Shown here piece after piece: positions 739 to 18,047 of a stretch of 64,000 nt of DNA (position 1 is its first letter; each line of letters begins with the position of its first letter). The DNA lies in contig NZ_JABBGA010000008.1 in NCBI RefSeq assembly GCF_012927165.1, positions 124,001-188,000 of the forward strand. The letters run 5' to 3'. The position numbers and the translations under genes are program-made. Origin of the DNA: Zoogloea dura (GTDB taxonomy: Bacteria; Pseudomonadota; Gammaproteobacteria; Burkholderiales; Rhodocyclaceae). A model generated the notes under the pieces. That model was given only the letters and a program-made list of their open reading frames with translations, had not been told where the DNA came from and searched no databases.

Positions 739-1089
739 ATGGGACGACTGACCACCCACGTGCTCGACACGGCCAACGGCCGGCCGGGCAACGGCATCGC
801 GGTGACCCTGTTCCGCATCGACGGCGGGCGCCGCGAGCTGCTGCGCACCCTCACCAACCACGATGGCCGCTGCGACCAGCCCCTGCTGCAGGGTGAGGCC
901 CTCGAGGCCGGCAGCTACGAGCTGGTCTTTGCCGCCGGCGACTACTTCCGCAGCCTCGGTGCGGCCCTTCCCGAGCCCCTGTTCGTCGATGAGGTGGTGC
1001 TGCGCTTCGGCATCGCCGACCCGTCCCAGCACTACCACGTGCCCCTGCTGGTCTCCCCGTGGAGCTACTCCACCTACCGCGGCAGCTGA
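739..1089 (+). CDS. uraH: 5-hydroxyisourate hydrolase
   Basis: This 116-residue transthyretin-like enzyme hydrolyses 5-hydroxyisourate, the product of urate oxidation, to OHCU. The N-terminal LTTHVLDT motif (His7), Arg44 in the HDGR segment, His98 in HYH and the C-terminal tetrapeptide YRGS are the family's active-site signatures. No signal peptide is present, so it acts in the cytoplasm. A strong AAGGAGA ribosome site lies just ahead of the ATG. It is the first gene of the uraH-puuD-uraD operon, with gaps of 34 and 21 bp. Confidence 0.97.
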   Translation: MGRLTTHVLDTANGRPGNGIAVTLFRIDGGRRELLRTLTNHDGRCDQPLLQGEALEAGSYELVFAAGDYFRSLGAALPEPLFVDEVVLRFGIADPSQHYHVPLLVSPWSYSTYRGS

Positions 1090-1123
1090 GCCCCGCCGCC
1101 TTTCCGCAAGAGACTGACGAGAC

Positions 1124-2317
1124 ATGGAAACCTATCTCCTCGACTGGGCCAACCTGCTGCTGCGCTGGCTCCACCTGATCACCGGCATCGCCTGGATCGG
1201 TGCATCCTTCTACTTCGTGATGCTCGACAACTCCCTGAGGCCGCCGAAGAAGGCCGCCGATGGCGAGCGCGGCGTCTTCGGCGAGCTGTGGGCCGTGCAT
1301 GGCGGCGGCTTCTACTGCAGCCAGAAATTCCTCACCGGGCCGAAGGGCGAACCCCTCAGCGACGACCTCCACTGGTCCAAGTGGGAGGCCTACACCACCT
1401 GGCTGTCGGGCATGAGCCTGCTGGTGGTGGTGTACTGGATCGGCGCTTCCAGCTACCTCATCGACAAGCAGGTGCTGGACATCGGCCAGGGCGCGGCGAT
1501 CGGCCTGTCGGTGGGCTTCCTGGCGGTCGGCTGGGTGGTGTATGACTTCCTGTGCCGCACGCTGATGGGCCGCGACGGCCTGCTCGCCGTGCTGGTCTTC
1601 ATCTTCGTGGTGGCCTGCGACTGGCTGCTGCACCAGGTGTTCTCGGCCCGCGGCGCCTACATCCACGTGGGGGCCATGCTCGGCACCATGATGGTGGCCA
1701 ATGTCTTCATCCACATCATTCCCGGCCAGAAGCGCATGGTCGAGCAGATCCGCGCCGGCCTGCCGGTGGACACCCGCCCCGGCCAGGTGGGCAAGCAGCG
1801 CTCGGTGCACAACACCTACTTCACGCTGCCGGTGCTGTTCATCATGATCAGCAACCACTACCCGATGACCTATTCCCACCCCCACGGCTGGCTGATCCTG
1901 GTGGTGATGATGCTGGCCGGCGTGCTGATCCGTCAGTTCTTCGTGCTGCGCCACCGGGGCCAGGTGAAGTGGTGGCTGCCCGCCGCCGGGGTGGCCCTGC
2001 TCGTCACACTGATCGTGCTGATGGCGCCCAAGACGGTGGATGCGGGCGGCGACAAGGTCAGCTTCGCGGCCTTCAGGCAGGTGGTGGATCACCGCTGCAC
2101 CACCTGTCACGCCGACAAGCCGACCCGCGAGGGCTTTGCCCAGCCGCCCAAGGGCGTGGTGCTGCAGACGCCGGAACAGATCGGCCAGCACGCCGCCAAG
2201 ATCGCCGAGACCGTTGCCAGCGGCTACATGCCCCTGGGCAACCTGACCGGCATCACCGACACGGAACGACAGCTCATCGCCCGCTGGTACGCCCAGGGCG
2301 CCCGGCTCGCCGACTGA
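1124..2317 (+). CDS. puuD: Membrane-bound urate hydroxylase with C-terminal cytochrome c (PuuD)
   Basis: The protein has 397 residues: an N-terminal multi-helix membrane region (about residues 10-300) with conserved His-rich helices, then a cytochrome c domain with heme site CTTCH at residues 325-329. This is the PuuD architecture, in which urate is oxidised to 5-hydroxyisourate and electrons go to cytochrome c rather than to O2 with H2O2 formation. Its position between uraH and uraD completes the urate-to-allantoin step. No soluble uricase gene was seen in the window. Confidence 0.95.
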   Translation: METYLLDWANLLLRWLHLITGIAWIGASFYFVMLDNSLRPPKKAADGERGVFGELWAVHGGGFYCSQKFLTGPKGEPLSDDLHWSKWEAYTTWLSGMSLLVVVYWIGASSYLIDKQVLDIGQGAAIGLSVGFLAVGWVVYDFLCRTLMGRDGLLAVLVFIFVVACDWLLHQVFSARGAYIHVGAMLGTMMVANVFIHIIPGQKRMVEQIRAGLPVDTRPGQVGKQRSVHNTYFTLPVLFIMISNHYPMTYSHPHGWLILVVMMLAGVLIRQFFVLRHRGQVKWWLPAAGVALLVTLIVLMAPKTVDAGGDKVSFAAFRQVVDHRCTTCHADKPTREGFAQPPKGVVLQTPEQIGQHAAKIAETVASGYMPLGNLTGITDTERQLIARWYAQGARLAD

Positions 2318-2338
2318 GGCCGGCCACGAGGACATCCC

Positions 2339-2854
2339 ATGACCACGACTACGCTCGAGACCCTCTCTGCCGCCGACCGCGACGGCTTCGTCGCCCGCCT
2401 GGCGGACATCTTTGAACACTCGCCCTGGATCCCCGAGCGGGCCTGGGCGGCCCGCCCCTTCGCCAGCGTCGACGCGCTCCACGCCGCCATGCTGGCGGTG
2501 CTGGACGCCGCCAGCGACGAGGAGAAGCTCGGCCTGATCCGCGCCCACCCGGAGCTGGCCGGCAAGGAAGCGGCCGCCGGCACCCTCACCACCGCGTCCA
2601 CCGGCGAGCAGCGCGGCGCCGGCCTGGACCAGTGCAGCGCCGAGGAACTGGCCCGCCTGCGCCGTCTCAATGCGCAGTACCGGGAGCGCTTCGGCTTCCC
2701 CTTCGTGATCGCGGTGAAGGGCCTGTCCCGCTACCAGATCATGGACGCCGTGGAGGCCCGTCTGGCCCGCGACCGGGCCGGCGAGTTCCGCACCTGCCTC
2801 ACTGAGATCGGCAAGATCGCCCGCTTCCGGCTGGACGCCCTGCTGGCGGTCTGA
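2339..2854 (+). CDS. uraD: OHCU decarboxylase
   Basis: The 171-residue protein converts 2-oxo-4-hydroxy-4-carboxy-5-ureidoimidazoline stereospecifically to S-allantoin. It carries the family motif HPELAGK with the catalytic histidine, the GEQRGAGL segment that binds substrate, and RFGFPFVIAVKG. No export signal is seen. It is the last gene of the urate operon; a rho-independent terminator follows at 2918-2964. Confidence 0.96.
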   Translation: MTTTTLETLSAADRDGFVARLADIFEHSPWIPERAWAARPFASVDALHAAMLAVLDAASDEEKLGLIRAHPELAGKEAAAGTLTTASTGEQRGAGLDQCSAEELARLRRLNAQYRERFGFPFVIAVKGLSRYQIMDAVEARLARDRAGEFRTCLTEIGKIARFRLDALLAV

Positions 2855-2973: not shown

Positions 2974-3501
2974 TCAGCGGTCCTTGTGGGCGAAGTCCAC
3001 CCGGCGGTTCTCGGACCAGCAGCTCTCGTCGTGGCAGGTGGCGCGGGGCTTTTCGCTGCCGAAGCTGACCGCCTCGATGCGGCTGTCGGCCACGCCCATG
3101 TTCACCAGCGCCTTGCGAACGGCTTCGGCGCGCTTCTGACCCAGCGCCAGGTTGTATTCCCGGCTGCCGCGCTCGTCGGCATTGCCTTCCACGGAGATCA
3201 GGTCGCTCGCGGTGGCGGCGGTGAAGTCCGCCTGCTGCTTGACCACATCCTGGTAGCGGGCCGCCACGGTGAACTTGTCGTAATCGAAATACACGCTCTT
3301 CTTGGCCAGCTCGGTCCGCGCAGCAGCCAGGCGGCGAGCCTCCAGTTCGGCGGCGGACAGCTTGTCGGCGGCGACCGGGGCGGTGTTGGCCTGGGCCGCG
3401 GCAGGGGCGCTTTCCGGCGCGGTGACGGTCTTGGTTGCGGTGGTGGAACAGGCGGCAAGGGCGGCACAGGCCAGCAGGCTCGCCAGGACGGTTTGTTTCA
3501 T
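2974..3501 (-). CDS. OmpA/Pal-like outer-membrane lipoprotein
   Basis: Starting at the ATG at 3501 the product has 175 residues, beginning MKQTVLASLLACAALAAC with an LAAC lipobox (lipidated Cys at 18). The longer upstream frame would bury this signal. Residues about 65-175 form an OmpA-C peptidoglycan-binding domain with YFDYDKF, GNADERGSREYNLALGQKRA and the terminal ENRRVDF segment. It resembles Pal of the Tol-Pal system, but tolB and ybgF are not adjacent, so it is either a stand-alone paralogue or the displaced pal. Confidence 0.85.
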   Translation of the reverse strand: MKQTVLASLLACAALAACSTTATKTVTAPESAPAAAQANTAPVAADKLSAAELEARRLAAARTELAKKSVYFDYDKFTVAARYQDVVKQQADFTAATASDLISVEGNADERGSREYNLALGQKRAEAVRKALVNMGVADSRIEAVSFGSEKPRATCHDESCWSENRRVDFAHKDR

Positions 3502-3585
3502 GAAATCGAACTCCAGGACGGGGGCAGAAAGGGGAAACAAAAGCCCCACAGCCGGTTCAAGACGATCATGAGTACGGCTTTAGGG

Positions 3586-3615
3586 TTTGCGAAATTTATT
3601 GCTGCAAATTATATT
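3586..3615. promoter_or_regulatory. AT-rich divergent promoter region
   Basis: An unusually AT-rich patch in the 266-bp gap between the lipoprotein and antiporter genes. On the minus strand a perfect TATAAT lies at 3613-3608, 107 bp before the lipoprotein ATG. On the plus strand TTTGCG (3586-3591) and TATATT (3610-3615) are 18 bp apart and could drive the antiporter operon. No operator is obvious. Confidence 0.5.
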
Positions 3616-3767
3616 GATGGCAATCTATCTAGGAAAGGGGACGTCGGCCTTGCATGGCCGATGCGATTCGTACCCGTTCCATCAACGGGCAACCACCAGC
3701 AAGGAGACTTTGGAGGGCCTTCCGCGATCCCGGTTCAGGTCGGGGCGTGGAGCCCTCTGTTTTTTGC

Positions 3768-5003
3768 ATGCCGCTTTCCTTCAGCGATCTTGAACCATCC
3801 CCTTTGCTGCTGTTCGGACTGTTGCTGCTCGCCGGTACGGCGGGCGGAGAACTGAGTCGCCGAGTCTTCAATCTGCCACGCACCACAGGCTATGTGCTGG
3901 TGGGGGTCATGCTCGGCAACAGTGGTCTGCGCTGGGTCGATCCCTATGTGTTGGGGGCTGCCCAGTTTTTCATCTACCCGGCACTGGGTCTGATCCTGTT
4001 CGAACTGGGCAACCGCCTGCCCGCGCCAGGAGAGGGGTTTGACCGGCGCCTGGTATTGACCGGCTTGGCCGAAAGCGGCGGTGTGCTGGCCGTGGTCGGC
4101 GGCGTGCTGTTGTGGGCCGGCGCTGATCCACTGACGGCGGGCTTCGGTGCCGCGGTGGCGCTATCCACGTCGCCGGCGATCACCATTGCCACAACCGCCG
4201 ATGTGGGTGCCGATGGCCCTTCCACTCGTCGTTTGTATGGACTGGTCGCCATCAATGGTTGTGTGGCCTTCACCATGATGTGTCTGCTGCGCCCGCTGAT
4301 GCAGACCGACGATGCGGGACTCACGGTAGCCCACGTGGCAGGAGCCTTCGCCGAACTGCTGTTGTCCGTGGCGCTGGGGGCAGGCCTGGCGGCCCTGGCC
4401 TGCCGCGCGGCCGGCTGGCTTGGCCACCATGCGGAGCATCAGCATCTGATGCTGCTGGGTTTGATCGTGATCGGCACGGGGCTGCCCCTTAGCCTCGATG
4501 TGTCGCCGCTGCTCACGTTGCTGTCTTTTGGTGTGCTGACCCGCCTGTTAGACCGGCAGGGAAGGGTCGTAGCCCTGCGGATCGCATCGGATGCGCGGGT
4601 GTTCCTGGTGGTCACCTTCGTGCTGGCGGGGGCTGCCCTGGATATCGGCGAACTGCTCATGCACTGGCCGCTCGCGGTGGCCCTTGCGCTTGCACGATTC
4701 GGGGGCCACTGGGGTGTCCTGCATGTGGCAGGCCGTCTGGATGGGCAGGCGCCGGCGCTGGCCCTGTTCACTGCGGTGGGCTTACTGCCCATGTCCAGCG
4801 TGGCGCTGGTGCTGCTGGGCGATGCCGGCTTGGCCGGTAGTGACGCCCCGCATCTGGCGGGCGCTCTGATGGGGCTGATCGTGCTGATGCAACTGCTCGG
4901 CCCGCTCTGCACGCAACTGGCAATCATCGGCTTCGGCGAGGCGCGGCGCTACCAGCCTCGTCGCGGCAAGCGCCATCTGCCGAACGGAGCCCGTCCCTCA
5001 TGA
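3768..5003 (+). CDS. CPA2/Kef-type cation:proton antiporter A
   Basis: A polytopic membrane protein of about 411 residues with roughly 12 hydrophobic segments of the sodium/hydrogen exchanger fold (GYVLVGVMLGNSGLRW near the N-terminus, TAGFGAAVALSTSPAITIAT in the unwound-helix region). It has no TrkA-N/RCK cytoplasmic domain, unlike KefB/KefC. The ATG at 3768 follows the purine-rich GTGGAG only loosely; a frame open to 3654 exists, so the start is uncertain. It is the first gene of a five-gene operon and overlaps the next gene by ATGA (5000-5003). Confidence 0.82.
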   Translation: MPLSFSDLEPSPLLLFGLLLLAGTAGGELSRRVFNLPRTTGYVLVGVMLGNSGLRWVDPYVLGAAQFFIYPALGLILFELGNRLPAPGEGFDRRLVLTGLAESGGVLAVVGGVLLWAGADPLTAGFGAAVALSTSPAITIATTADVGADGPSTRRLYGLVAINGCVAFTMMCLLRPLMQTDDAGLTVAHVAGAFAELLLSVALGAGLAALACRAAGWLGHHAEHQHLMLLGLIVIGTGLPLSLDVSPLLTLLSFGVLTRLLDRQGRVVALRIASDARVFLVVTFVLAGAALDIGELLMHWPLAVALALARFGGHWGVLHVAGRLDGQAPALALFTAVGLLPMSSVALVLLGDAGLAGSDAPHLAGALMGLIVLMQLLGPLCTQLAIIGFGEARRYQPRRGKRHLPNGARPS

Positions 5004-6256
5004 CGATTCTGCGTGACGCCTGGGAGGCCCTGCAGGATCGCCTCTTCTTCCTCCCCCCTTTTCCAGATCAACTTGATGCCTTGGCTCTGTTCGCCCTGCT
5101 GCTGATCGCCGGCCTGGTGGTGGGGGAGTTGCTGCAGCGCCGTCTGGGGCTGTCGCGCCTCGTCGGCTATGTGCTGGCGGGCGCCGTGTGCGGTCCGGAG
5201 GGGTTGGGCTGGCTGGATGCCGAGGGGGTGGCGATGGCACGCCCCGTTGCAGATGTGGCTCTTGGGCTGTTGATGATGGAGACCGGGCGCAATCTGGATT
5301 GGCGCTGGCTCAGGCTCAATCCCGGCCTGTTGCGCAGCGCCGGCGCCGAGGCGGGGCTCGCCTTTGCCGGACTGTTTGCCTTTGCCTGGCTGGCGGTGGA
5401 TCTGTCACCCGCCTGGAGCGCGGCGACGGCTGCCATCGCCATGGCTTCCGCACCGGCGGTGGTGCTGCTCATCACCGAGGAGTGCCGGGCCGAGGGGCAG
5501 GTCGCACAGCGTACCCAGGTGCTCACTGCGATCAACTGTACAGCCTCATTTGTGGTGTTTGCGATAGTGCTGGGGGTCATCCATGCAGAGCAGTCGGGTG
5601 ACTGGCTCAACAGCCTGGCCCACCCCTGCTGGGTGGTAGGTGGCGGTGGCATCATCGCCTGGCTGTGCGCCCGCCTGGCCCTGGCGGTGGCGGCCCGGCA
5701 GTCCGGTGGTGCGCTGGCCCAGGTCTTTGTGCTGGTCGCGGCGGCCTTGCTTGCCATCGGGCTGGCACGCATGGTGGCAGTGCCGGTCTTCCTGTGCCTT
5801 TTCATGATGGGGCTTGCCTTGGGAAGCCTGGATCGCGGTCGCGTGCTGACCTACGCCAGCCTGCCTCAGGGGCATGGTCTCCTGGCCGTGGTCCTCTTCG
5901 TCGTCACGGGGGCCATGTTACCTCTCACCGACATGACCCCCCTGGCGGTGGCCCAGGTGCTGGGTTTGCTGTTGGTGCGCGGGCTGGCGAAGTTTGGCGG
6001 GGTTACTCTCGTCGGCCAGGCAGATCTGCCGATGGCCAAGCGGCGCCTGGTCGGGTTGGGCATCCAGCCGCTCTCCGCCACGGCCATCTTCATGGCGGCC
6101 GAACTGACGACGATCTATCCGGAGGTCAGCGGCCAGGCCCTGGTGCTGCCGCTGCTGGCAGCGGCGGTGATGGAGTTCATTGGCCCGCAATTGTGCCGTG
6201 CGGCGCTGGTGCGGGCGGGGGAGACGGCGCCGGCCGCCGGGAGGAGAACAGAATGA
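5000..6256 (+). CDS. CPA2/Kef-type cation:proton antiporter B
   Basis: A second exchanger-like membrane protein (418 residues, about 12 hydrophobic segments; LSRLVGYVLAGAVCGPEGLG near residue 50, MASAPAVVLLITEE near 155). Like its neighbour it ends after the membrane domain. The two are distant paralogues, and each is about the size of a full exchanger, so a heteromeric or divided-labour transporter is possible (inference). The start codon overlaps the stop of gene A and its own stop overlaps the ligase gene start (6253-6256), so translational coupling is likely. Confidence 0.85.
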   Translation: MTILRDAWEALQDRLFFLPPFPDQLDALALFALLLIAGLVVGELLQRRLGLSRLVGYVLAGAVCGPEGLGWLDAEGVAMARPVADVALGLLMMETGRNLDWRWLRLNPGLLRSAGAEAGLAFAGLFAFAWLAVDLSPAWSAATAAIAMASAPAVVLLITEECRAEGQVAQRTQVLTAINCTASFVVFAIVLGVIHAEQSGDWLNSLAHPCWVVGGGGIIAWLCARLALAVAARQSGGALAQVFVLVAAALLAIGLARMVAVPVFLCLFMMGLALGSLDRGRVLTYASLPQGHGLLAVVLFVVTGAMLPLTDMTPLAVAQVLGLLLVRGLAKFGGVTLVGQADLPMAKRRLVGLGIQPLSATAIFMAAELTTIYPEVSGQALVLPLLAAAVMEFIGPQLCRAALVRAGETAPAAGRRTE

Positions 6257-7404
6257 GCGATCTGGCGGGTCTGCGTTTTGCGTCGAGCCGTCCCCTGACC
6301 CTCGGGGTGGAGCTGGAATTGCAATTGGTGTCCCTGCGGGACTACGACCTTACCCGCGCGGCCACCGATCTGCTGGCCAGCTTGCCGGGTGATGACAGCC
6401 ATGGGGAGGTGAAGCTAGAGATCACCGAGAGCATGATCGAGGTGAACTCCAAGCCCCGTCAGGACATTGCCGGCATCGCGGCGGACCTGGAGGGCCTGCG
6501 GGCCTTGCTGGTTCGTCACTGCGGGCGCAACAACATCGCGGTGTGTGGTGGCGGAACCCATCCCTTCCATCGCTGGCCCGAGAGGCGTATCTCGCCTGGC
6601 GAGCGATTCGCGTTTCTGAACGAACGTTACGGCTACCTCAGCAAGCAGTTCACGGTGTTCGGCCAGCATATCCATGTGGGCGTGCGCTCCGGCGATGAGG
6701 CGATCTGGCTGACCCATGCCCTCAACGCCCACATCCCCTATTTCATTGCCCTGTCGGCCTCCTCGCCTTACATGGATGCCACCGACACAGGCTTCCAGTC
6801 GGCGCGGCTCAACGCCGTGTCGGCCTTTCCCCTGTCGGGGCAGGCCCCTGACGTCGCGGATTGGGCCGCCTTCCTCGACCACATGGCCTTGTTGCAGTCC
6901 TGCGGCGTAGCCGCGAGCATCAAGGATCTGTACTGGGATGTGCGCCCCAAGCCCGAGTACGGCACTGTTGAACTGCGCATCTGCGACACTCCGTTGAGCG
7001 TGGCGCGTGCGGTGCAACTTGCGGCCCTGGCGCAGTGTCTGTGCCGCTACCTGTTGCGGGAGCGGCCGCCGGTGGATCCGGTGCTGCAGACCTTGGTGGC
7101 CCGGCACAACAAGTTCCAGGCCTGCCGCTTTGGCTTCGAGGCTGAACTGGCTGACCCTCTACGCCGCGAGCCGCGGTGCCTGGCCACGGCGCTGGAGGCA
7201 TTGCTTGCCACGCTGGCAGGTGATGCCGCGGCGTTGGGCTGTTCCGGCCAGCTCAATGCATTGCGGGAAATCACCGAGGCTCGTGCTGGTGATGCCGCCT
7301 GGCTGCGTGCTCGGGCGGCGACGGGGCAGCATGCGTTCAATGAGCTGACCCGGCAAGCTGTTGAGCGCTTTGCCGAGCCATCCATACAAGGGGGGGGGAT
7401 CTAG
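6253..7404 (+). CDS. GCS2-type carboxylate-amine ligase (YbdK-like)
   Basis: The 383-residue protein has glutamate-cysteine ligase family 2 features: LGVELELQLV at the start of the domain, GEVKLEITESMIEVNS for ATP/Mg and glutamate binding, the GGTHPFHRW motif, GQHIHVGVRSGDEAI and the late YGTVELRICDTP. Characterised relatives ligate a carboxylate to an amine, giving gamma-glutamyl-type products; E. coli YbdK has weak gamma-glutamylcysteine ligase activity. It is cytoplasmic. Its coupling to two Kef-type antiporters is notable because Kef channels are gated by glutathione and its adducts. The true substrate is unknown. Confidence 0.88.
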   Translation: MSDLAGLRFASSRPLTLGVELELQLVSLRDYDLTRAATDLLASLPGDDSHGEVKLEITESMIEVNSKPRQDIAGIAADLEGLRALLVRHCGRNNIAVCGGGTHPFHRWPERRISPGERFAFLNERYGYLSKQFTVFGQHIHVGVRSGDEAIWLTHALNAHIPYFIALSASSPYMDATDTGFQSARLNAVSAFPLSGQAPDVADWAAFLDHMALLQSCGVAASIKDLYWDVRPKPEYGTVELRICDTPLSVARAVQLAALAQCLCRYLLRERPPVDPVLQTLVARHNKFQACRFGFEAELADPLRREPRCLATALEALLATLAGDAAALGCSGQLNALREITEARAGDAAWLRARAATGQHAFNELTRQAVERFAEPSIQGGGI

Positions 7405-8670
7405 ATGGCTATGCCGTCTGTGGCATCACTGGCATTGGGGCTGCTTGCCAGCGTGGTCTGTGCGCATGTGGGGGCAGCGTGCACGACGCGGGAGTCCCGG
7501 CCTGGCACCGAGGCAGGCAACGCCTGGGTGACGCGCGCAAACTGGCTGGAGGCCGGCACCCTGCGCTTCGGCGTGACCCGCCCGGCGCAATTCATGCCCG
7601 GGCTTAGCGTCGCGCCGGCCAGTGCGGCGGCGTCGCGGCCGGCGGCTTCCTGGCGCCTCGATCCGGACAGGGTATCGGTCACGGACCCGGCGGACGACAG
7701 CACACGCAGCCTGCGCTTCCTGCTTGAAAACCGGATCGACGCTGACGGGGTGATAATCCTCCGCCAGGGTCGAACCCTCCTCGACTACCGTCGCAGCGGC
7801 TTTGACCCCGCCGCTCCGCGCCTTCTCCAGTCAGCCACCCGACCCATCCTGGTCGCCTGGCTGGCCAGAGCTGCCAGCGAAGGTCGCCTGGCCCGGGACA
7901 AGGCCATTAACCGCCTCATTCCCGAGTTGGGTGATGTCAGGGAGTTGGGCAAGCGGCCCGTGCAGCGCCTTCTGGATGGGCGCACCGGTCTGGGCTGGGG
8001 GGATGACGAGATCGGTCAGTGGCGCAGCGTGGCGGGTTGGACCGCGGCCCCGGGGGCGGACCTGCGGGGTTGGCTCAAGGCTCGTCCTGTATGGCCGCGG
8101 GCCGAAGGAGAGCATGGAGCGGAGGCGATCGGTCCGGGGGGAGAGCTGCTGGTGTGGGTGGTCGAAAAGGCCCGGCGCCAGCCTGTCGCTGCGCTCCTGT
8201 GCGAGATGCAGGAACGCATCGGCGCCCGCCACCCCGCCTTCTGGGCGACCGACGGGGTCGGCACGGCGCTTGCGGATGGGCTGGCACTCAGCCTTGAAGA
8301 CTTTGCGAGTTTTGGTCAGGCGCTGCTGGACGCCCGCGGCCGCCCTGGTCGGCGCACTTATCTGCCCGCCTGGTTTGCCGATGCCCTGGCGGCGGGGGGG
8401 GGGCAGGACGCTGAGCGTCCGGCGGCCGTCAAGGCGCTTGGGGCGGACGTGGGCTGGCAGTACCATTTTGCCCACCCGGGTCGGCGAACCCGTCAGGCCG
8501 CCATCGTGGGGGAGAACGGCAGCAGCCTGCTGGTGGATTTCGATCGGGGGCTGGTCATCGCGATGTTTGCATCCCATGCCCAGCGGGAGTCGCCCCTCCT
8601 TATGGCGAGTTTGCGGCGGCTTTGGGAGATGCCCGTGAGCACGGGAGGGAGACGTGGCAAGAAAGGGTGA
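7405..8670 (+). CDS. Exported serine-hydrolase-like protein with degenerate active site
   Basis: The 421-residue product begins with a signal peptide (hydrophobic residues 5-24). Residues about 110-400 follow the beta-lactamase class C/6-aminohexanoate-dimer hydrolase pattern (GVIILRQGRTLLDYRRSGFD, later RLLDGRTGLGWGDDE). At the catalytic SxxK position it reads S143-A-T-R146, so the general-base lysine is arginine, and no clear YxN motif is visible. It may be a binding protein or an altered enzyme. The ATG follows the ligase stop directly, with no gap. Its codon use is less biased than that of the purine genes. Confidence 0.72.
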   Translation: MAMPSVASLALGLLASVVCAHVGAACTTRESRPGTEAGNAWVTRANWLEAGTLRFGVTRPAQFMPGLSVAPASAAASRPAASWRLDPDRVSVTDPADDSTRSLRFLLENRIDADGVIILRQGRTLLDYRRSGFDPAAPRLLQSATRPILVAWLARAASEGRLARDKAINRLIPELGDVRELGKRPVQRLLDGRTGLGWGDDEIGQWRSVAGWTAAPGADLRGWLKARPVWPRAEGEHGAEAIGPGGELLVWVVEKARRQPVAALLCEMQERIGARHPAFWATDGVGTALADGLALSLEDFASFGQALLDARGRPGRRTYLPAWFADALAAGGGQDAERPAAVKALGADVGWQYHFAHPGRRTRQAAIVGENGSSLLVDFDRGLVIAMFASHAQRESPLLMASLRRLWEMPVSTGGRRGKKG

Positions 8671-9178
8671 AATGCAGCGTCAGGGCTGGACGTTCCGCCT
8701 GGGCTGGGGACTCCTGCTGGCACTGGCCGTGCAGGCGCTGGCGGCCTCCGATCTGTGGCCGGAACGCTCCCGCGCGGTGCTGGTGCTGGCCGGCGAGTTC
8801 CAGGTGCCGGTGGAGCAGGCGGAGGGCGAGCGGGCCCTGACCCTGGCCCTGGACCCGCAGGAAGTGTTCGACGCGCGGGGCGAGACCATCCGTCCCGCCT
8901 GGCTGGGCTTCCTGCGCGGCCTGGCGTCCCAATTCCAGCCGGGCAGCGGCTTCCGCCTGGTCATCACCGGCTACGGCGACCGTCCGGCCAAGGGCTACAA
9001 CCCGGTGCTGCTGGGCAAGCGCGTGCGCGCCCTGCAGACCTTCCTGGCGGAGAACGGCCTGGCCATGACCTGGTCCCGCGCCGAGGTGAGGGAAGGCGAT
9101 GCCTACGAAGGCCCCGCCGAGATGCTCGACGAGGCCTGTTGCGGCAAGGTCATCACCCTCAAGCTGGTGGTCAGCTGA
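8654..9178 (+). CDS. Small exported protein with divergent OmpA-like domain
   Basis: A GTG start at 8654 is preceded by GGGAGGGAG and gives 174 residues; an ATG at 8672 behind AAGGG is a close alternative. A signal peptide ends near ALA-AS (about residues 29-31). The rest (about 75-150) has the spacing of an OmpA-C domain: a hydrophobic strand, FRLVITGYGDRP, then LGKRVRALQTFLAENGLA. Two cysteines (CC near residue 164) precede the C-terminus. It overlaps the preceding gene by 17 bp and closes the operon. Assignment to OmpA-like is by pattern only. Confidence 0.6.
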   Translation: MARKGEMQRQGWTFRLGWGLLLALAVQALAASDLWPERSRAVLVLAGEFQVPVEQAEGERALTLALDPQEVFDARGETIRPAWLGFLRGLASQFQPGSGFRLVITGYGDRPAKGYNPVLLGKRVRALQTFLAENGLAMTWSRAEVREGDAYEGPAEMLDEACCGKVITLKLVVS

Positions 9179-9189
9179 GGGGGCGGATC

Positions 9190-9897
9190 TCAGGACAGGG
9201 GCGCTGCGGACGGCGCCAGGGGCGACCCGAGGGCGCGGCCACAGGCCTGCCAGGCCTGGCCGCCATCGTCCTCGTCCACCAGTTGGGCATACTCGCGCAC
9301 CAGCTGGGCCAGCGAGTCCGTCTCCAGCTTGATGCCCAGGCGTGCCCGATGGACCTCCACGGTGCGCGGCGACACGCTCAGGGCACGGGCGATCTCCTTG
9401 TTGGTGAGGCCGGCCACCACCATCCCCAGCACTTCCCGCTCACGCCCTGACAGGCGGGCATAGAGCGCCCGCGTGCGCAGTTCGCGCTGGTGTCGTACCC
9501 GGTTGAGAACCTGGGTGCCGATCGCCTTGCGCAGGGATTCGGCCAGCACTTCCAGCGGAGCATCGAGGGGCAGGAAGTCTGTTGCGCCGGCACGGAAGGC
9601 GCGCCGGCACAGGTCCACATCGCCCCCGTCCGCTCCTGCCGCTGTGACGATCAGGGGGATTCCCGCGCCTTGCTGCTGCAGTGTCCCGAGCAGGCTCAGG
9701 GCGCCGTCGTCCGGAAGGGACGCGTCGGCCAGGATCACGCAGGCCCGGGATGGGTCGAGATCCACCAGCAGGCGCTCCGCGCTGGAGCAGTGATGCAGGC
9801 TGGCGCCGAGCTGGCGTGCCACGCGCTGGAGCCTGCCCGGCAGCTGCGGGGCGGTGTCGATCACGTGGATCAGGGGGGAGGAGGCAAGGGGGGGCAT
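9190..9897 (-). CDS. FixJ/NarL-type response regulator with degenerate receiver
   Basis: The 235-residue protein has an N-terminal receiver-like domain (about 8-125) and a C-terminal LuxR helix-turn-helix (LSGREREVLGMVVAGLTNKE at about 150, then SPRTVEVHR). The phospho-acceptor aspartate seems kept (Asp58 in ADASLP). The acidic pair near residue 14 reads DT rather than DD, and the conserved lysine of DFLxK is leucine (Leu111), so ordinary phosphorelay switching is doubtful. No histidine kinase gene is adjacent. It lies 13 bp downstream of the transporter gene on the same strand. Confidence 0.85.
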   Translation of the reverse strand: MPPLASSPLIHVIDTAPQLPGRLQRVARQLGASLHHCSSAERLLVDLDPSRACVILADASLPDDGALSLLGTLQQQGAGIPLIVTAAGADGGDVDLCRRAFRAGATDFLPLDAPLEVLAESLRKAIGTQVLNRVRHQRELRTRALYARLSGREREVLGMVVAGLTNKEIARALSVSPRTVEVHRARLGIKLETDSLAQLVREYAQLVDEDDGGQAWQACGRALGSPLAPSAAPLS

Positions 9898-9910
9898 GGC
9901 AGTCGGGGAG

Positions 9911-10807
9911 TCAGGGCCGTGAAGGTGGGCGGCGCAGGCCGGCGAGGCTGATCATGGCCAGGGCCAGGCCGATGAGCCCCATGCCGGCCATCTCCGCCGG
10001 GCTCGGGCGCTCGCCCAGCTGTAGCCAGCCGGACAGCACGCCGATGGCCGGGATGCCGAGGGCCGACAGGCCGGCGATGGCGGCGGGTAGGTGTTGCAGC
10101 ACATACAGCCACAACAGCCAGGCCAGCCCGGTGGCGAACAGGGCATTGAAGGCCAGGGCGCCATAGAAATACGGTGTGGCGTCGATCGGGCGTGACGGCA
10201 CCAGCAGGGCGGCCACGCACAGCACGATAGCGCCGAAAAGCATCTGCCAGGCGGTCAGGGCCAGCAGGTCCACCGCCTGTCGCTGGCGCAGGCGCTTGGC
10301 CACCACGGTGGCCAGGGCCCAGCACAGGCCGCCGCCCATGGCGAGCAGGTTGCTGAAGGCGCTGCCGCCCATCGACCAGGGTTCCAGGATCATCACCAGG
10401 CCGGCGGCGGCCACGCCGGTGGCGACCCACTGGGCGCTGCCGATCCGCTCGCCCAGCAACCAGGTGGCCAGCGGTGCCAGCCAGAAGGGCATGGTGTACA
10501 CCAACACGGCGGTCTTGCCGGCCCCGCCATTCACCAGCGCCCACTGGATCAGCAGGGTGAAGGCCGCCGTCTGCAGCAGGCCGAGCAGCACCACGTCGCG
10601 GCCGGGGATCCGCCGCATCGGCCGGCCCAGCACGCGCATGGTCGCAAACAGCGCGGCGGCGCCCAGTACCGTGCGGATCGCCGAGAAGTCGAGGGGCGAG
10701 GCGAGGCGCGCCACCTCCTTCATGACGACCCAGTTGTAGCCCCAGATCAGTGACAGGACGAGCAGGGCCAGCAGGGCGCGGCGGGGCAGGGCGGAGGAGG
10801 AGGTCAT
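9911..10807 (-). CDS. EamA-family drug/metabolite transporter
   Basis: A 298-residue membrane protein with ten predicted helices in two EamA repeats (first about 10-140 with LSLIWGYNWVVMKE, second about 150-290 with GGGLCWALATVVAKRL). Family members export metabolites or drugs; nothing here fixes the substrate. It is divergent from the purine permease and probably co-transcribed with the downstream LuxR-type gene. Confidence 0.88.
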   Translation of the reverse strand: MTSSSALPRRALLALLVLSLIWGYNWVVMKEVARLASPLDFSAIRTVLGAAALFATMRVLGRPMRRIPGRDVVLLGLLQTAAFTLLIQWALVNGGAGKTAVLVYTMPFWLAPLATWLLGERIGSAQWVATGVAAAGLVMILEPWSMGGSAFSNLLAMGGGLCWALATVVAKRLRQRQAVDLLALTAWQMLFGAIVLCVAALLVPSRPIDATPYFYGALAFNALFATGLAWLLWLYVLQHLPAAIAGLSALGIPAIGVLSGWLQLGERPSPAEMAGMGLIGLALAMISLAGLRRPPSRP

Positions 10808-10933
10808 GGCACTTCAGTGGAATCGTATTGAGGTCCGGCGCCAGGGCGTGGGAGGCCTGGCGGCAGGCAGGGCTCCCAGCATACGCAGAAGCCCTCCCCC
10901 AGGCACCCGCCGGGCCAGGTTCCCCGCCGCGGC

Positions 10934-11015
10934 TTCGATGTTGCACTGCGGTACGGGCAGAAGAGGGGCCGCATGCTCGGAGGAAGATTCGATGTTGCGA
11001 AGCAACAATATCGAA
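10934..11015. promoter_or_regulatory. Repeated TTCGATGTTGC operator-like sites
   Basis: TTCGATGTTGC occurs at 10934-10944 and again at 10988-10998. An inverted partner, GCAAC-AAT-ATCGAA, lies at 11002-11015 and makes a long dyad with the second copy. These sit upstream of the permease -10, within the 347-bp gap that otherwise holds only promoter sequence. They may bind a regulator of the permease or of the divergent transporter gene. Confidence 0.45.
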
Positions 11016-11025
11016 GCGCTTATTT

Positions 11026-11073
11026 CCCTTATCAGGACTCGGTTCAGCCAGCCGGAAACACGCCACCTACACT
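11026..11073 (+). promoter_or_regulatory. NCS2 permease promoter with shared TTATMA/TACACT layout
   Basis: TTATCA (11029-11034, in CTTATCAG) begins 39 bp before TACACT (11068-11073). Spacing and sequence match the uraH and puuE promoters. The start codon is 82 bp downstream of the -10. Confidence 0.55.
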
Positions 11074-11154
11074 GGCTCCAGATCCCGGTGCCTCCGGGCA
11101 TTTCTTCAGCGTCCGCAGAGACGCTCGAGCACACACAAGATAGAGGAGACCTCC

Positions 11155-12678
11155 ATGTCGGAGCATTCAAAGGAATCAAAGGTCCAGCCGGTTGATCCGG
11201 TGGACGAGCGCCTGCCCACCGGGCGCTTGTTCACCCTGGGCCTGCAGCACGTGCTGGTGATGTATGCAGGGGCGGTGGCGGTGCCGCTGATCGTCGGGCG
11301 GGCCCTCAAGCTCGATGCGGAACACGTGGCCATGCTGATCTCGGCCGACCTGTTCTGCTGCGGCCTGGTCACCCTGATCCAGTCCCTCGGCTTCGGCCGT
11401 CACTTCGGCATCAAGCTGCCGGTGATGATGGGTGTCACCTTTGCCGCGGTCGGCCCGATGGTCGCCATGGCCAATGTGCAGAGCGGCCCCGAGGGGGCGC
11501 GGGCGATCTTTGGCGCGATCATTGGCGCGGGCCTCATCTCGATCGCCATCGCGCCCTTGATGAGCCGCCTGCTGCGCTTCTTCCCGCCGGTGGTGACCGG
11601 CACCATCATCGCCATCATCGGGATCAGCCTGATGCGGGTCGGCATCGGTTGGGCCATGGGCGGCCCGGCGCCGCTGGCCCAGAGTGTCGATGTGCCCAGG
11701 CTGGTGGCCATGGTGGATGCGGCCAAGGCCAGGGCGGCCGAGTCTGCCGCCAGCCTGCCCCCCGGTGCCGCCGCGCCCGAGGTCAAGCTGCCCGGCCCGG
11801 TGCCCATGAAGGACAACCCCAACTACGGCGCCCTCGACAACATGGGCATCGCCGCCTTCGTGCTGGCCACCATCCTGCTGCTGGTGCGCTATGGCCGTGG
11901 CTTCGTGTCGAACATCGCCGTGCTGCTGGGCATCGTGATCGGCTGCGTGGTGGCGGCCGGCATGGGCAAGATGCACTTCGACAAGGTGGCCCAGGCCCAC
12001 TGGGTGGACATCGTCACCCCCTTCGCCTTCGGCATGCCCACCTTCGACATCGTGATGGTGCTGACCATGGCCCTGGTGATGGTGGTGGTGATGATCGAAT
12101 CCACCGGCATGTTCCTGGCCCTGTCCGAGATCACCGGCCGCAAGATCAGCCAGCAGGACCTCTCCAACGGCCTGCGTACCGATGGCCTGGGCACCGTGAT
12201 CGGCGGCCTCTTCAACACCTTCCCCTACACCAGCTTTTCGCAGAACGTGGGCCTGGTCGGCGTCACCGGGGTGAAGAGCCGCTGGGTCTGCGTGGCTGCC
12301 GGCATCATCATGGTGGTGCTCGGCATGCTGCCCAAGATGGCGGCCCTGGTGGAGTCGGTGCCCACCTTCGTGCTCGGTGGCGCTGGCCTGGTGATGTTCG
12401 GCATGGTGGCCGCCACCGGCGTGCGCATCCTCGCCAACGTGGATTTCAAGAGCAAGCGCAACAACCTGTACATCGTCGCCATCTCCATCGGCGCCGGCAT
12501 GATCCCCCTGGTGGCGCCGCGCTGGACCCAGCAGATGTCCCACAGCCTGCACCCCCTGCTGGAGTCCGGGATCCTGCTCACCTCCATCGCCGCCGTGGCG
12601 CTGAACCTCTACTTCAACGGCGGCAAGGCCGACGAGGCCGGGGCCATCGAAGCCGCCAAGGCCGCCGAAGCCCACTAA
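11155..12678 (+). CDS. NCS2-family purine (urate/xanthine) permease
   Basis: A 507-residue transporter with 12-14 membrane segments. Family signatures are GLQHVLVMYAG in helix 1 (conserved His), MIESTGMFLALSE in helix 8 (essential Glu) and QNVGLVGVTGVKSR, the NCS2 motif. A polar insertion of about 50 residues (near 175-225, Ala/Pro-rich) enlarges one loop compared with usual members near 460 residues. AGAGGAG precedes the ATG at 11155. Its place in the urate island supports urate or xanthine uptake; the exact substrate cannot be told from sequence. Confidence 0.93.
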   Translation: MSEHSKESKVQPVDPVDERLPTGRLFTLGLQHVLVMYAGAVAVPLIVGRALKLDAEHVAMLISADLFCCGLVTLIQSLGFGRHFGIKLPVMMGVTFAAVGPMVAMANVQSGPEGARAIFGAIIGAGLISIAIAPLMSRLLRFFPPVVTGTIIAIIGISLMRVGIGWAMGGPAPLAQSVDVPRLVAMVDAAKARAAESAASLPPGAAAPEVKLPGPVPMKDNPNYGALDNMGIAAFVLATILLLVRYGRGFVSNIAVLLGIVIGCVVAAGMGKMHFDKVAQAHWVDIVTPFAFGMPTFDIVMVLTMALVMVVVMIESTGMFLALSEITGRKISQQDLSNGLRTDGLGTVIGGLFNTFPYTSFSQNVGLVGVTGVKSRWVCVAAGIIMVVLGMLPKMAALVESVPTFVLGGAGLVMFGMVAATGVRILANVDFKSKRNNLYIVAISIGAGMIPLVAPRWTQQMSHSLHPLLESGILLTSIAAVALNLYFNGGKADEAGAIEAAKAAEAH

Positions 12679-12740
12679 GCCTTCCGCTCCACCCTCTCCC
12701 AGCTCCACCCTCAGCCAATCCGCCGTTCCGTCGCCATCGC

Positions 12741-12760
12741 GCGTGCAGTCCGCTGCACGC
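12741..12760. other. Stem-loop between permease and Tsx-like genes
   Basis: GCGTGCAG (12741-12748) and CTGCACGC (12753-12760) form a perfect 8-bp stem with a TCCG tetraloop. No T-run follows, so it is more likely an mRNA processing or stabilising hairpin than a terminator. Confidence 0.45.
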
Positions 12761-12807
12761 CGGGGCTTCGCTCGGCCATCGATCACAAGAAAAGAGGAGA
12801 CACGACC

Positions 12808-13662
12808 ATGATCCGCAGCCTCACCCTCGCCGCCCTGCTCGGCGCCATCGCCCCCGCCGCCCTTGCCGCCACCTGGAGCGACAGCTTCCTCGGCTACCGC
12901 TGGGGCACCCAGTTCCGCGAGCCGAACAACACCCAGGACGTGCGCAAGCATGTGCTGCAATTCACCCATGCCAGCGGCTATGCCACCGGCCAGAACTTCG
13001 TCAACCTGGACGTCCTGCAGTCCGACAAGAACGACCCGCTGTCCGGCGGCGGTTCCGGCGCCACCGAGTTCTACCTCACCTACCGCCACCAGCTGCACCT
13101 GGGCAAGCTGCTCGACAAGGACCTGTCCTTCGGCCCGGTCAAGGAAGTGGCCTTCACCGGCGGCTTCGACCTCAACACCAAGAACACCCGCTTCGCCCCC
13201 CGCAAGCGCCTGGTGGTGGCCGGCCCGACCCTCAAGTTCGACGTGCCCGGCTTCCTCGACGTGAGCCTGCTCGCCGGCAAGGAGTGGAACCACTGCGGCC
13301 TGGGCAGCCCGGCCTGCCCCGAGGCCGAGGTCGGCTTCGACCCGCAGCTGATCCTCAGCGTCAGCTGGGGCATCCCCTTCCAGGCGGCCTCCCTGCCCAT
13401 GAAGTTCCAGGGCTTCCTCAACTACAACACCGCCAAGGGCCGCGACTACGCCAAGGTGAAGACCGAGGCCGAGACCCTGATGCGCACCTCCCTGATGGTG
13501 GACGTCGGCCAGCTGGCGGGTAGCCGCAAGAACACCCTGCTCGCCGGGGTCGGCTACGAGCTGTGGCTCAACAAGTTCGGCAACCACGCCAACGCCGCCG
13601 GCGTGACCAAGCCGGGCATCAACACCCGTACGCCGACTCTCCAGCTGGAATGGCATTTCTGA
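12808..13662 (+). CDS. Tsx-like outer-membrane nucleoside/purine channel
   Basis: The 284-residue product has a Sec signal peptide (cleavage near ALA-AT, residue about 20). The body alternates polar and hydrophobic beta-strand residues and ends in an aromatic residue (LEWHF), as outer-membrane barrels do. The opening WSDSFLGYRWGTQFREP and the strands that follow resemble the Channel_Tsx/OmpK family, which passes nucleosides. Behind the purine permease gene it would supply the outer-membrane step. AGAGGAG lies before the ATG. Confidence 0.8.
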   Translation: MIRSLTLAALLGAIAPAALAATWSDSFLGYRWGTQFREPNNTQDVRKHVLQFTHASGYATGQNFVNLDVLQSDKNDPLSGGGSGATEFYLTYRHQLHLGKLLDKDLSFGPVKEVAFTGGFDLNTKNTRFAPRKRLVVAGPTLKFDVPGFLDVSLLAGKEWNHCGLGSPACPEAEVGFDPQLILSVSWGIPFQAASLPMKFQGFLNYNTAKGRDYAKVKTEAETLMRTSLMVDVGQLAGSRKNTLLAGVGYELWLNKFGNHANAAGVTKPGINTRTPTLQLEWHF

Positions 13663-13692
13663 TCCCGCTGCCGTATCCGGAGACTCATCCCC

Positions 13693-14976
13693 ATGCATGA
13701 AATCACCCGCGTCGAGGGCCTCGAGATCCTCGACTCCCGCGGCAACCCCACCCTGCAGGCCACGGTCACCCTGGCCTCGGGCCACCAGGGCACGGCGGCG
13801 GTGCCGTCCGGTGCCTCCACCGGCAAGCGCGAAGCCCTCGAGCTGCGCGACGGCGACCCGGCGCGCTTCGGCGGCAAGGGCGTGCGCCGCGCCCTGGCCC
13901 ACCTCGAAGGCCCCATCGCCGCCGCCCTGCGGGGCCGTGATGCCGCCGACCAGGCCGGCCTCGACCTGGCCCTGTGCGACCTCGACGGCACGGCCGACAA
14001 ATCCCGCCTGGGCGCCAACGCCCTCCTCGCCGCGTCGCTGGCCTGCGCCCACGCCGCGGCGGCCGGCCGCGGCCTGCCCCTGTACCGCCACCTCGCCGTG
14101 GACGGGCTCGAGCCGCTGCTGCCGGTGCCGCTGATGAACGTCATCAATGGCGGCGCCCATGCCAACAACAGCCTGGACATCCAGGAGTGCATGATCGTCC
14201 CCCACGGCTTCGAGCGCTTCGGCGAGGCCCTGCAGGCCGGCGTCGAAGTCTTCCACGCCCTGCGCAGCCTGCTGCAGCGCTACGGCCTGCCCACCGCGGT
14301 GGGGGACGAGGGCGGCTTTGCCCCCAACGTGGCCGGCACCCGCCAGGCCCTCGACCTGATCCTCGAAGCCATCCGCGCCGCCGGCTACCAGCCCGGCGAG
14401 CAGGTCGCCCTGGCCCTCGACTGCGCCGCCTCCGAGTTTCACCGGGACGACCGCTACGTGCTGGCCGGCGAGGCCCGCGCCTTCACCCGCGCCGAGTTCT
14501 CCGACTACCTGGCAAGCCTGGTGAATGACTACCCCATCGTCAGCATCGAGGACGGCATGGCCGAGGACGACCGGGCCGGCTGGGGCCAGCTCACCGACCG
14601 CCTGGGGCGGCGCATCCAGCTGGTCGGCGACGACCTCTTCGTCACCGACGTGCACCTGCTGGCCGAAGGCGTGGAGCACGGCCTGGGCAACGCCATCCTG
14701 ATCAAGCCCAACCAGATCGGCACCCTCGGCGAGACCCTGGCCGCCATGGCCTACGCCCGCCGCGCCGGCTACGCCGCCATCGCCTCCCACCGCTCCGGCG
14801 AGACCGGCGACACCACCATCGCCGACCTGGCCGTGGCCACCGCCTGCGGCCAGATCAAGACCGGCTCGGCGAGCCGCTCCGACCGCGTTGCCAAGTACAA
14901 CCGCCTGCTCGCCATCGAACGGGAGCTGGGCAGCGCCGCCCGCTTCGCCGGCACGGCGGCCCTCGGGCGCCACTGA
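13693..14976 (+). CDS. eno: Enolase, probably a pathway-dedicated paralogue
   Basis: The 427-residue protein converts 2-phosphoglycerate to phosphoenolpyruvate. It has all key enolase segments: [67 protein letters not shown] and [17 protein letters not shown]. The last reads GDTT where housekeeping enolases usually read EDTT, and GSASRSDR replaces GSLSRSER, consistent with a diverged copy. It sits in the purine island rather than beside pyrG/ftsB. With the glycerate kinase and pyruvate kinase nearby it can link glycerate to pyruvate. Confidence 0.93.
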
Positions 14977-14985
14977 GAGGCCGCC

Positions 14986-15498
14986 ATGCTGCTCGGACTG
15001 GCCCTGTTCTACGTGGGCGCGGTGCTGATCCTCAACGGCCTGTGGATGCTCGGCCGCATCGGCGACCGGGAGATCCCGGTGATCAACCTGTTCGCCGGCG
15101 GCCTCAGCCTGCTGGTGGCCCTCAAGCTGGCCTTCGGCGAAGGGGCCGACCTGGCCTCGGTGAAGGCGGCGGCCTTGTCGCTGCTCTTCTCCTTCACCTA
15201 CCTGTGGGTCGCCATCAACCGCTACAGCGGCGCCGACGGCCGCGGTCTGGGCTGGTTCAGCCTGTTCGTGGCGATCACCGCTGTGCCGGTAGCCGCCGAC
15301 GCCCTGGGCGCGGCCAGCTCGCCGGGTGAGTGGTGGCTGGGCCTGTCCTGGGTGGCCTGGTCGATACTCTGGCTGATGTTCTTCCTGCTGCTCGCCCTGG
15401 GCCGCCCCCTGGCCCGCTCCACCGCCTGCATGGCCATCGGGCAAGGCGTGCTGACCGGGTGGTTGCCGGGTTACCTGCTGCTGACGGGGGGGCTGTAG
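14986..15498 (+). CDS. AmiS/UreI-family urea/amide channel
   Basis: A 170-residue inner-membrane protein with six hydrophobic segments, starting MLLGLALFYVGAVLILNGLW, with YLWVAINRY in mid-protein, both typical of AmiS/UreI. Length matches AmiS (about 170). The family conducts urea and short amides. Urea is released twice by this pathway (allantoicase and ureidoglycolate lyase), so urea movement is the natural role. It follows enolase by 9 bp with GAGAGG as ribosome site. Confidence 0.85.
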   Translation: MLLGLALFYVGAVLILNGLWMLGRIGDREIPVINLFAGGLSLLVALKLAFGEGADLASVKAAALSLLFSFTYLWVAINRYSGADGRGLGWFSLFVAITAVPVAADALGAASSPGEWWLGLSWVAWSILWLMFFLLLALGRPLARSTACMAIGQGVLTGWLPGYLLLTGGL

Positions 15499-15516
15499 CT
15501 GTGTTTTGGGGGCTTT

Positions 15517-16103
15517 CCTTCGTTCCACGTTGGATTGGCCGGGATTTCGCCCCGGCGGGCGACCCCTTTCTTTGCGTCGCCAAAGAAAGGGGGAAAGAAA
15601 GGCGACCGGGCTTCCCCGGTCGTCCGCTTCGCGAACGACTCCCCTGCGCTGCTCGCATCGGGCGGCCGGCGCGGAACTCGTCGGCTACGCCTCCTCAGAC
15701 AGCCGCGCCGGAAAGCCCCGCCCGATACTGCGCTGCTCGGCGGGTCAGAACGGGCTTTCAGCAAGCACCGAGCCTCTACGGAAAGACCGGTGGGTGCGAG
15801 ACGCTGGGGTTTTGCTTTTCTCGTTGGAAGCCAACCTCGGCTTCAGCAAACGCGCGGTGTTTGCGAAAAGCCCGTTCCGACCCGCCGAGCAGCGGAACGG
15901 CAGGCGGGGTAGTCCGGCGCGGCTGTCTGAGCCCGCAGGGCGAGTTCCGCGCCGGCCGCCTGCCGTGAGCAGCGCAGGGCAGTCATTCGCGCAGCGAATG
16001 ACCGGGGAGGCGGGTCGCCTTCTTTGCCTTCTTTCTTGGCGAAGCAAGAAAGAAGGTCGCCCGCCGGGGCGAACTCCCGGCCAATCCAACGTGGAACGAA
16101 GGA
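15517..16103. repeat. Giant imperfect palindrome, copy 1 (about 590 bp)
   Basis: The left edge (CCTTCGTTCCACGTTGGATT...) is the reverse complement of the right edge (...AATCCAACGTGGAACGAAGG), and the match continues inward through arms of over 250 bp: GCCCCGGCGGGCGACC/GGTCGCCCGCCGGGGC, CCTGCGCTGCTC/GAGCAGCGCAGG, CAGACAGCCGCGCCGGA/TCCGGCGCGGCTGTCTG, and GCTCGGCGGGTC/GACCCGCCGAGC. The tip near 15822-15834 is a small GTTGG-AAG-CCAAC hairpin. A second copy in the same orientation lies at 23750-24341. Long open frames on both strands are by-products of GC-rich palindromic sequence; no transposase is encoded. Confidence 0.9.
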
Positions 16104-16139
16104 CCCCCTCCACCCCATACCAAAAGTACCGAAAGAACC

Positions 16140-16176
16140 GATCCCGCCAGCAATTCAAACGGGATCTGCAAATCCC
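16140..16176. promoter_or_regulatory. GGGAT dyads upstream of gcl
   Basis: GATCCCG (16140-16146) and CGGGATC (16160-16166) form a perfect 7-bp inverted repeat with a 13-bp spacer. GGGAT (16161-16165) also pairs with ATCCC (16172-16176). They lie 50-85 bp before gcl, the place for an operator of a glyoxylate-responsive regulator. The TTATMA/TACACT layout of the urate promoters is absent. Confidence 0.45.
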
Positions 16177-16223
16177 TAAGCTGTCCCCATCGACCCATCG
16201 GACAGACCTACAAGGAGACACAC

Positions 16224-17999: not shown

Positions 18000-18012
18000 A
18001 CGCTGTGTGCCC

Positions 18013-18030: not shown

Positions 18031-18047
18031 CTACAAAGGAAAAGACC

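Follow-up and report, generated by a model that had tools for sequence, protein, structure and literature searches.

An antiporter-fold and YbdK ligase gene pair in a Zoogloea dura operon and its relatives across Burkholderiales

What does a carboxylate-amine ligase do in one operon with two membrane proteins of an antiporter fold? The question is raised by a 64,000-nucleotide stretch of DNA from Zoogloea dura (the window; contig NZ_JABBGA010000008.1, here C78, positions 124001-188000, in a genome of 5.83 Mb). Five open reading frames, all on the plus strand, form an operon at positions 3768-9178. They encode two antiporter-fold membrane proteins, K1 (3768..5003; 411 amino acids, aa) and K2 (5000..6256; 418 aa), a YbdK carboxylate-amine ligase of the GCS2 family (6253..7404), SerH (7405..8670), a protein with a beta-lactamase fold that resembles 6-aminohexanoate-dimer hydrolases, and a small OmpA-like protein (8672..9178). 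A first-pass annotation of this DNA had placed a five-gene operon at these positions and had read it as a self-contained module for ion efflux or envelope stress. The open reading frames are borne out. The best explanation of the locus is that a two-gene antiporter-YbdK module, widespread in Burkholderiales (taken here in the broad sense), has been extended to a five-gene operon of the Zoogloea type.

The pairing of the two gene families carries this view. In a sample of 250 Burkholderiales genomes, 65 contain YbdK genes (69 in total) and 78 contain antiporter-like genes (86 in total), with linkage counted from six-frame profile searches or genome-search coordinates. For 61 of the 69 YbdK genes, the same strand carries an antiporter-like gene 26-134 nucleotides (nt) further 5', counted from profile end to profile end. 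The pair is also present in 80 out of 80 named loci, the 80 that rank highest among 564 named matches to a YbdK alignment; this set was chosen by similarity and is biased, with several species for some genera. The genome of the window encodes a second, diverged pair (C34:322555-325675; L043). All five families, in the same order, are found in four other genomes of the genus (L044-L047). Because this full order recurs and the pair recurs across Burkholderiales, the five-gene arrangement is more than a chance assembly. Neighbourhood of the homologues in other genomes, which had been put forward as the check on the annotation, is thus found, and the coupling of a YbdK ligase to antiporter-fold proteins in a conserved module is supported by linkage. 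In the open-access literature, to which the search was confined (subscription papers and preprints were outside its scope), we found neither this gene pair nor a ligase-linked clade of acid-less antiporters described.

Beyond Burkholderiales the association is nearly absent from the loci sampled. None of 20 fetched YbdK loci, drawn from 68 genomes of other orders with a YbdK above the cut-off, has an antiporter beside it, and comparing the genome match lists for both families revealed no YbdK from another order next to an antiporter-like gene. By their titles, two metagenome-assembled loci of the named set belong to lineages other than Burkholderiales (L179, Lysobacter; L189, Acidiferrobacteraceae). 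A link so nearly confined to one order could reflect a gene order that arose once and was frozen by descent, without functional coupling between the products. However, the pair persists over 22 named genera at the same short spacing while the neighbouring genes differ, and the window's genome maintains two diverged copies. We consider a frozen gene order improbable.

The second part of the answer lies in the transporters themselves. K2 matches PF00999 with 64.6 bits (cut-off 26.2), and K1, a divergent homologue with 30% identity to K2, has no Pfam or NCBIfam match at E-values up to 1. The structural model of K2 (predicted local distance difference test, pLDDT, 91.0; predicted template modelling score, pTM, 0.88) shows two broken helices, as in the exchanger fold, and matches NHA2 (Z 35.5), NapA (Z 35.1) and KefC (Z 29.2; 369 residues). 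The predicted fold of K2 is that of sodium/proton exchangers. The likeness to NHA2 and to the CPA2 antiporters NapA and KefC extends over approximately 367-386 residues (Z 29-35) and includes PF00999 and a lysine (Lys331, K331) that is retained in 75 of 88 aligned rows. In contrast to these proteins, the present transporters have no acid at the ion site and no RCK domain, possess family-specific acids at positions 94 and 117 as well as Arg171, and are tied to a ligase gene.

The missing acid is a property of the whole clade. In independent profile alignments to PDB sequences, N179/C180 of K2 align with Q155/D156 of KefC and with the ND pair of MjNhaP1; they replace the DD pair of outgroup antiporters, where K1 reads AIN-GC. 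The ion-binding aspartate (KefC D156) is accordingly Cys in K2 and Gly in K1. None of 88 rows has an acid at either DD position; the rows come from the 80 named loci, of which L183 and L221 are too short to score, leaving 78. At the first position the clade carries one of N, S or G, and at the second one of S, C, G, N, A, T, M or V, whereas 15 out of 16 distant antiporters (L095-L110, all except L099) have Asp at the second. A tree of 122 sequences, built by a quick method and rooted at the midpoint, splits off the DD, NN and K1 sequences by one branch each (support 100, 99 and 100, respectively), and the linked K2-type sequences form the remainder. In one survey (PMC6181914, as far as its text was available), 94% of the cation/proton antiporters under analysis are given as having the equivalent Asp, and the accessible text on KefC describes a D156N variant with no bound K+ (PMC11150392). 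Judged from these alignments, the loss suggests that the transporters lacking the ion-binding acid carry something other than Na+ or K+.

This bears directly on the first-pass annotation, which had proposed a Kef-type K+ efflux gated by glutathione or its adducts, with the ligase as a local source of the ligand. The PF00999 match of K2 and the weak gamma-glutamyl-cysteine ligase activity reported for E. coli YbdK are in line with that proposal. Against it, no RCK/TrkA domain was detected in K1 or K2 at E-values up to 1, while the glutathione site of KefC is located in the RCK domain (PMC11150392, same text), and the cation-binding Asp is absent as well. Glutathione gating was rejected on account of the absent RCK domain, and Kef-type efflux as a whole is very improbable. 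For the same two reasons, no RCK domain and no cation-binding Asp, ‘antiporter’ is used here for K1 and K2 as a fold label and not as a demonstrated activity.

The ligase is more typical of its family. The window protein (P0003) scores 457.8 bits against NF010040 (equivalog cut-off 425) and matches the solved YbdK structure 1r8g, with 1tt4 as a further relative. Its GhExE metal/ATP signature reads GVELE. Of 100 gene calls for linked YbdKs, 99 show this pattern; the single exception (L221) is a gene call that starts late. To our knowledge, the role of YbdK has never been settled, about two decades after its structure was solved, and we know of no operon of the present type around ybdK in E. coli. 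From family membership and the work on the E. coli enzyme, we infer ligase activity for the YbdK of the operon. The YbdK genes fetched from outside Burkholderiales differ in their surroundings, with no antiporter at any of the 20 loci. The chemistry of the family is the joining of an amine to a gamma-carboxylate (PMC2588565, in the part of the article available).

A third protein family recurs beside the pair. We clustered the neighbours within four genes of the pair in 100 linked loci (80 named loci, 19 others and the window; six contigs occur twice, which leaves 94 distinct loci). A C26 gamma-glutamyl hydrolase is present in 58 loci, SerH in 26, a MarR-like regulator (below the cut-off) in 15 and an OmpA-like protein in eight, or in 52, 21, 14 and six of the distinct loci, respectively; these counts rest on gene calls, and the simple gene caller missed genes in several loci (e.g., L119, L120, L122, and L056). 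Among the named loci, 42 out of 80 have C26. It was found in none of the controls, i.e., 20 YbdK loci from other orders, 17 loci of unlinked acid-less antiporters and five of unlinked YbdKs. The catalytic Cys is present in all 58 C26 proteins and His-Pro-Glu in 57, the last gene being cut by a contig end. Five scanned members match PF07722 with E-values between 6e-51 and 9e-55. No C26 gene lies beside the operon in the window; the sole matching copy in this genome directly follows the second pair on C34. That pair and its C26 gene are located downstream of MacB/FtsX-type ABC transporter genes.

The reading that we favour, and to which we give somewhat less than an even chance, is that YbdK makes and C26 cleaves a gamma-glutamyl-type amide, and that the transporters move this amide or a precursor of it rather than exchanging K+ and H+. 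In the cytoplasm, YbdK would spend ATP to couple an amine to glutamate, or to an acid like it, through the gamma-carboxylate, and C26 would reverse this reaction. The acid-less transporter would take the amide, or else the precursor, through the inner membrane in one direction or the other. K1 would be a second, accessory paralogue, perhaps the heterodimer partner of K2, and SerH may be a periplasmic pseudo-amidase that binds the amide. A more specific version, possible but doubtful, is that a sodium/proton exchanger fold was rebuilt as a carrier of organic amides or amines coupled to gamma-glutamylation, with the ligase making or trapping the cargo and C26 releasing it.

The PuuA-PuuD gamma-glutamyl-putrescine pathway, in which PuuA and PuuP are the ligase and the transporter, offers the same logical set of a ligase, a hydrolase of the C26/PuuD class and a membrane transporter. 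The parts are different, however, since the ligase described here belongs to GCS2 and not to the glutamine synthetases, the transporter has an antiporter fold, and three scanned C26 proteins reach 72-92 bits, far below the PuuD equivalog cut-off of 266. A related idea appears in Iyer et al. (2008), in whose neighbourhoods a different ligase family stands beside an amidotransferase-like thiol peptidase; neither ‘antiporter’ nor ‘transporter’ occurs in the main text of that article as available (PMC2588565).

If the more specific version with a rebuilt exchanger fold is true, a ligase-coupled transport system is widespread in Burkholderiales, and the orphan enzyme YbdK gains a physiological job, perhaps in osmotic adjustment. 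A frequent partner of YbdK within one order (61 of 69 genes), together with a hydrolase that could break its product down again, directs further work towards metabolites and transport. Moreover, a whole clade has kept the exchanger fold and lost an acid regarded as essential. It must either have rebuilt its ion site or have taken on another cargo, and it is a natural test of the exchanger mechanism.

Several observations weigh against this amide-carrier reading. Gene adjacency is no proof of functional coupling, and eight of the 69 Burkholderiales YbdKs have no upstream antiporter; five of these eight were fetched (all but G477, G540, and G552) and contain no antiporter nearby. C26 is encoded in 12 of the 22 named genera and near only one of ten linked loci from the phylum sample (L114-L123), for which reasons it is a frequent partner and not a core member. 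Acid-less relatives with an NN motif also exist without YbdK (14 of the 14 fetched). Among the linked members, one (G351, L117) still has an Asp, confined to the first position of the DD pair (ALDCV). Finally, 86 of 87 linked rows have an acid at position 94 and 78 have one at position 117; cation binding might have moved to these carboxylates.

This last point leads to an alternative in which K2, having gained E94 and E117 and kept K331, is still a cation/proton antiporter, modulated by the ligase product or a stress signal. It is in effect the ion-efflux module of the first-pass annotation without the glutathione-RCK step. The conservation of the three residues is consistent with it, as is the placement of E117 on the helix preceding the broken helix, which at the level of the helix resembles that of NHA2 Glu214. 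An osmotic flavour is added by OtsB-like, OtsA-like and MscS-like neighbours near six, four and three of the 100 loci, respectively (one representative per cluster scanned). However, the essential second motif position is occupied by a non-acid in every linked row seen, and the D-to-N change in KefC already abolishes the K+ density (PMC11150392, same text). In addition, K1 proteins often have no Lys, and those outside Zoogloea also have no E117. We regard an antiporter with relocated acids as rather unlikely.

Some exchanger-fold proteins act in signalling, and the acid-less protein might likewise be a sensor of ions or of the amide that controls the ligase instead of a carrier. A kept fold with lost ion-binding acids would suit this role, and the close pairing with one enzyme would suit a receptor-enzyme pair. 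The broken-helix region and K331 are nevertheless conserved in the transporter family, suggesting a retained pathway, and the domain scan revealed no extra signalling domain on K1 or K2. A sensor is unlikely in our view, but we count it, with the relocated-acid antiporter, among the serious competitors of the amide reading.

The unpaired transporters were considered as well. There are 25 unpaired antiporter genes in the Burkholderiales sample, two of which (G000 and G434) are K1-type genes inside paired operons; six others were left out of the fetch (G543, G515, G446, G409, G469, and G533). The 14 unlinked acid-less relatives from the order have the NN motif with Gln or Arg at position 94, and unlinked L056 has Glu there. 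Neither YbdK nor C26 was found near the unlinked NN transporters (L231-L244, L111-L113), and the few neighbours scanned include no constant partner; they comprise MutS (L112), a second PF00999 antiporter (L111), a DRL-type oxidoreductase (L231, L234) and an HD-domain protein (L235, L238).

How far does the conserved unit extend in Zoogloea? Among 23 genomes of the genus, including that of the window, K1 orthologues (at least 54% identity) are found in ten. K1 lies directly 5' of K2 in nine of these ten; in the tenth (G016), K1 and K2 are on separate contigs. Other genomes have K2-YbdK operons without K1 (e.g., G005, G007, G009, G011, and G017). Strong matches to SerH occur in 15 of the 23 genomes, with a fragment in G021. 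Beyond the genus, homologues of K1, K2, YbdK and SerH are together in seven loci from Dechloromonas, Accumulibacter and Azonexus, five of which have a C26 gene between K1 and K2.

The boundaries are visible in a close relative (G010, locus L253). There, Pal is followed by a leader of 79% identity and immediately by the OmpA-like gene, whose protein is 88.5% identical, and then by the response regulator and the adjacent end of EamA, with no match to K1, K2, YbdK or SerH in this locus. Its similarity reaches window position 3784, a few codons into K1, and restarts at 8644, in the last 27 bases of SerH. The locus reads as a natural deletion of the four genes that left traces of both ends. The GC content at third codon positions (GC3) is 0.752 for K1, 0.809 for K2, 0.784 for YbdK and 0.773 for SerH, compared with 0.917 for the OmpA-like gene and 0.84-0.96 for 11 flanking genes. 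A less extreme codon use, which had been ascribed to the operon as a whole, therefore applies to its first four genes (0.75-0.81) and not to the fifth. Based on the G010 boundaries and this difference in GC3, the unit is formed by the first four genes; the OmpA-like gene is retained in G010, which has none of the other four. The ‘self-contained’ module of the first-pass annotation keeps its conserved coupling and loses its self-containment, since C26 is absent beside the operon and the OmpA-like gene is a variable member.

Searched by itself, SerH matches neither Pfam nor NCBIfam. A profile built from 15 of its relatives identifies 6-aminohexanoate-dimer hydrolases (best E 7.2e-24), and the structural model (pLDDT 75.8) has the fold of class C beta-lactamases and NylB hydrolases, with a match to 4gb7 (E 1.6e-18, template modelling score 0.66). 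By profile and fold, the nearest solved relatives are thus amide hydrolases such as NylB. Unlike in NylB, the catalytic Lys of the SxxK motif has given way to Arg or His in every SerH family member seen (all 26 gene calls, which represent 21 distinct members), including the window protein (SATR). The catalytic Ser is replaced in 19 of the 21 distinct members and retained in the window protein and L158. SerH thus looks like an inactive hydrolase, as the first-pass annotation had suspected, and it is predicted to be exported from a signal-like N-terminus judged by eye.

The OmpA-like protein of the window gives weak matches only and no Pfam match; it differs from OmpA-like peptidoglycan-binding proteins in having no OmpA domain above the Pfam cut-off. 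The domain in its relative from L047 reaches 20.5 bits, under the cut-off of 27.2. Export is predicted for this protein as well, from a signal-like N-terminus judged by eye.

The genes are tightly joined. The ATGA overlaps at 5000-5003 and 6253-6256 and the zero-base junction at 7404/7405 are present as first annotated. A 17-bp overlap at 8654-8670, also described then, exists only if the OmpA-like gene starts at GTG 8654. The in-frame ATG 8672, which leaves a 1-bp gap, is the more likely start, because it is preceded by the Shine-Dalgarno-like AGAAAGGG and because the corresponding junction in L046 and L047 is a 2-bp gap.

Upstream of the operon, a weak sigma-70-like promoter match (TTGCGA-17-TATATT) is located at 3587..3615 on the plus strand, with one match found against 0.4 expected in shuffled sequence. 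Terminator-like sites in positions 3500-9900 are fewer than in shuffles. The leader (3701..3767, plus strand) contains a Shine-Dalgarno-like AAGGAGA, then a long hairpin, and a U-run whose end immediately precedes the K1 start codon; the fold of 3622-3770 has a z-score of -2.84, and no known riboswitch was matched in Rfam at E-values up to 1. L044 and L045 share this layout; L049, which has lost K1, retains a remnant of it, and it is absent from L046-L048, L077, and L078. At the DNA level, the only good match outside the window among the 23 genus genomes is that in G010; the remaining matches are short, with E-values of 0.008 or worse. The leader could act as an attenuator or as a hairpin that sequesters the Shine-Dalgarno sequence.

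In two of the loci, a DapB-like reductase gene lies directly 5' of K2, at 2958-3713 in L161 (Pfam) and at 2958-3713 in L168 (below the NCBIfam dapB cut-off). We do not treat it as a core member, as the Pfam scan for it covered L161 and the NCBIfam scan L168, which falls below the cut-off. Trehalose-synthesis-like genes (OtsA and/or OtsB), some with an MscS-like gene, adjoin the module in more than one lineage, at L172, L190, L195, L062, L214, and L228; the Ots- and MscS-like neighbours hint at osmotic adjustment.

The flanks of the operon in the window (739-2854 and 10750-19766) have the look of purine/glyoxylate catabolism when their translations are read by eye, without a family scan. The candidates are a urate hydroxylase, an HIU hydrolase, an OHCU decarboxylase and a nucleobase permease, along with a glyoxylate carboligase, a hydroxypyruvate isomerase and a tartronate semialdehyde reductase. 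Pal also appears to be encoded in the flank, read in the same way.

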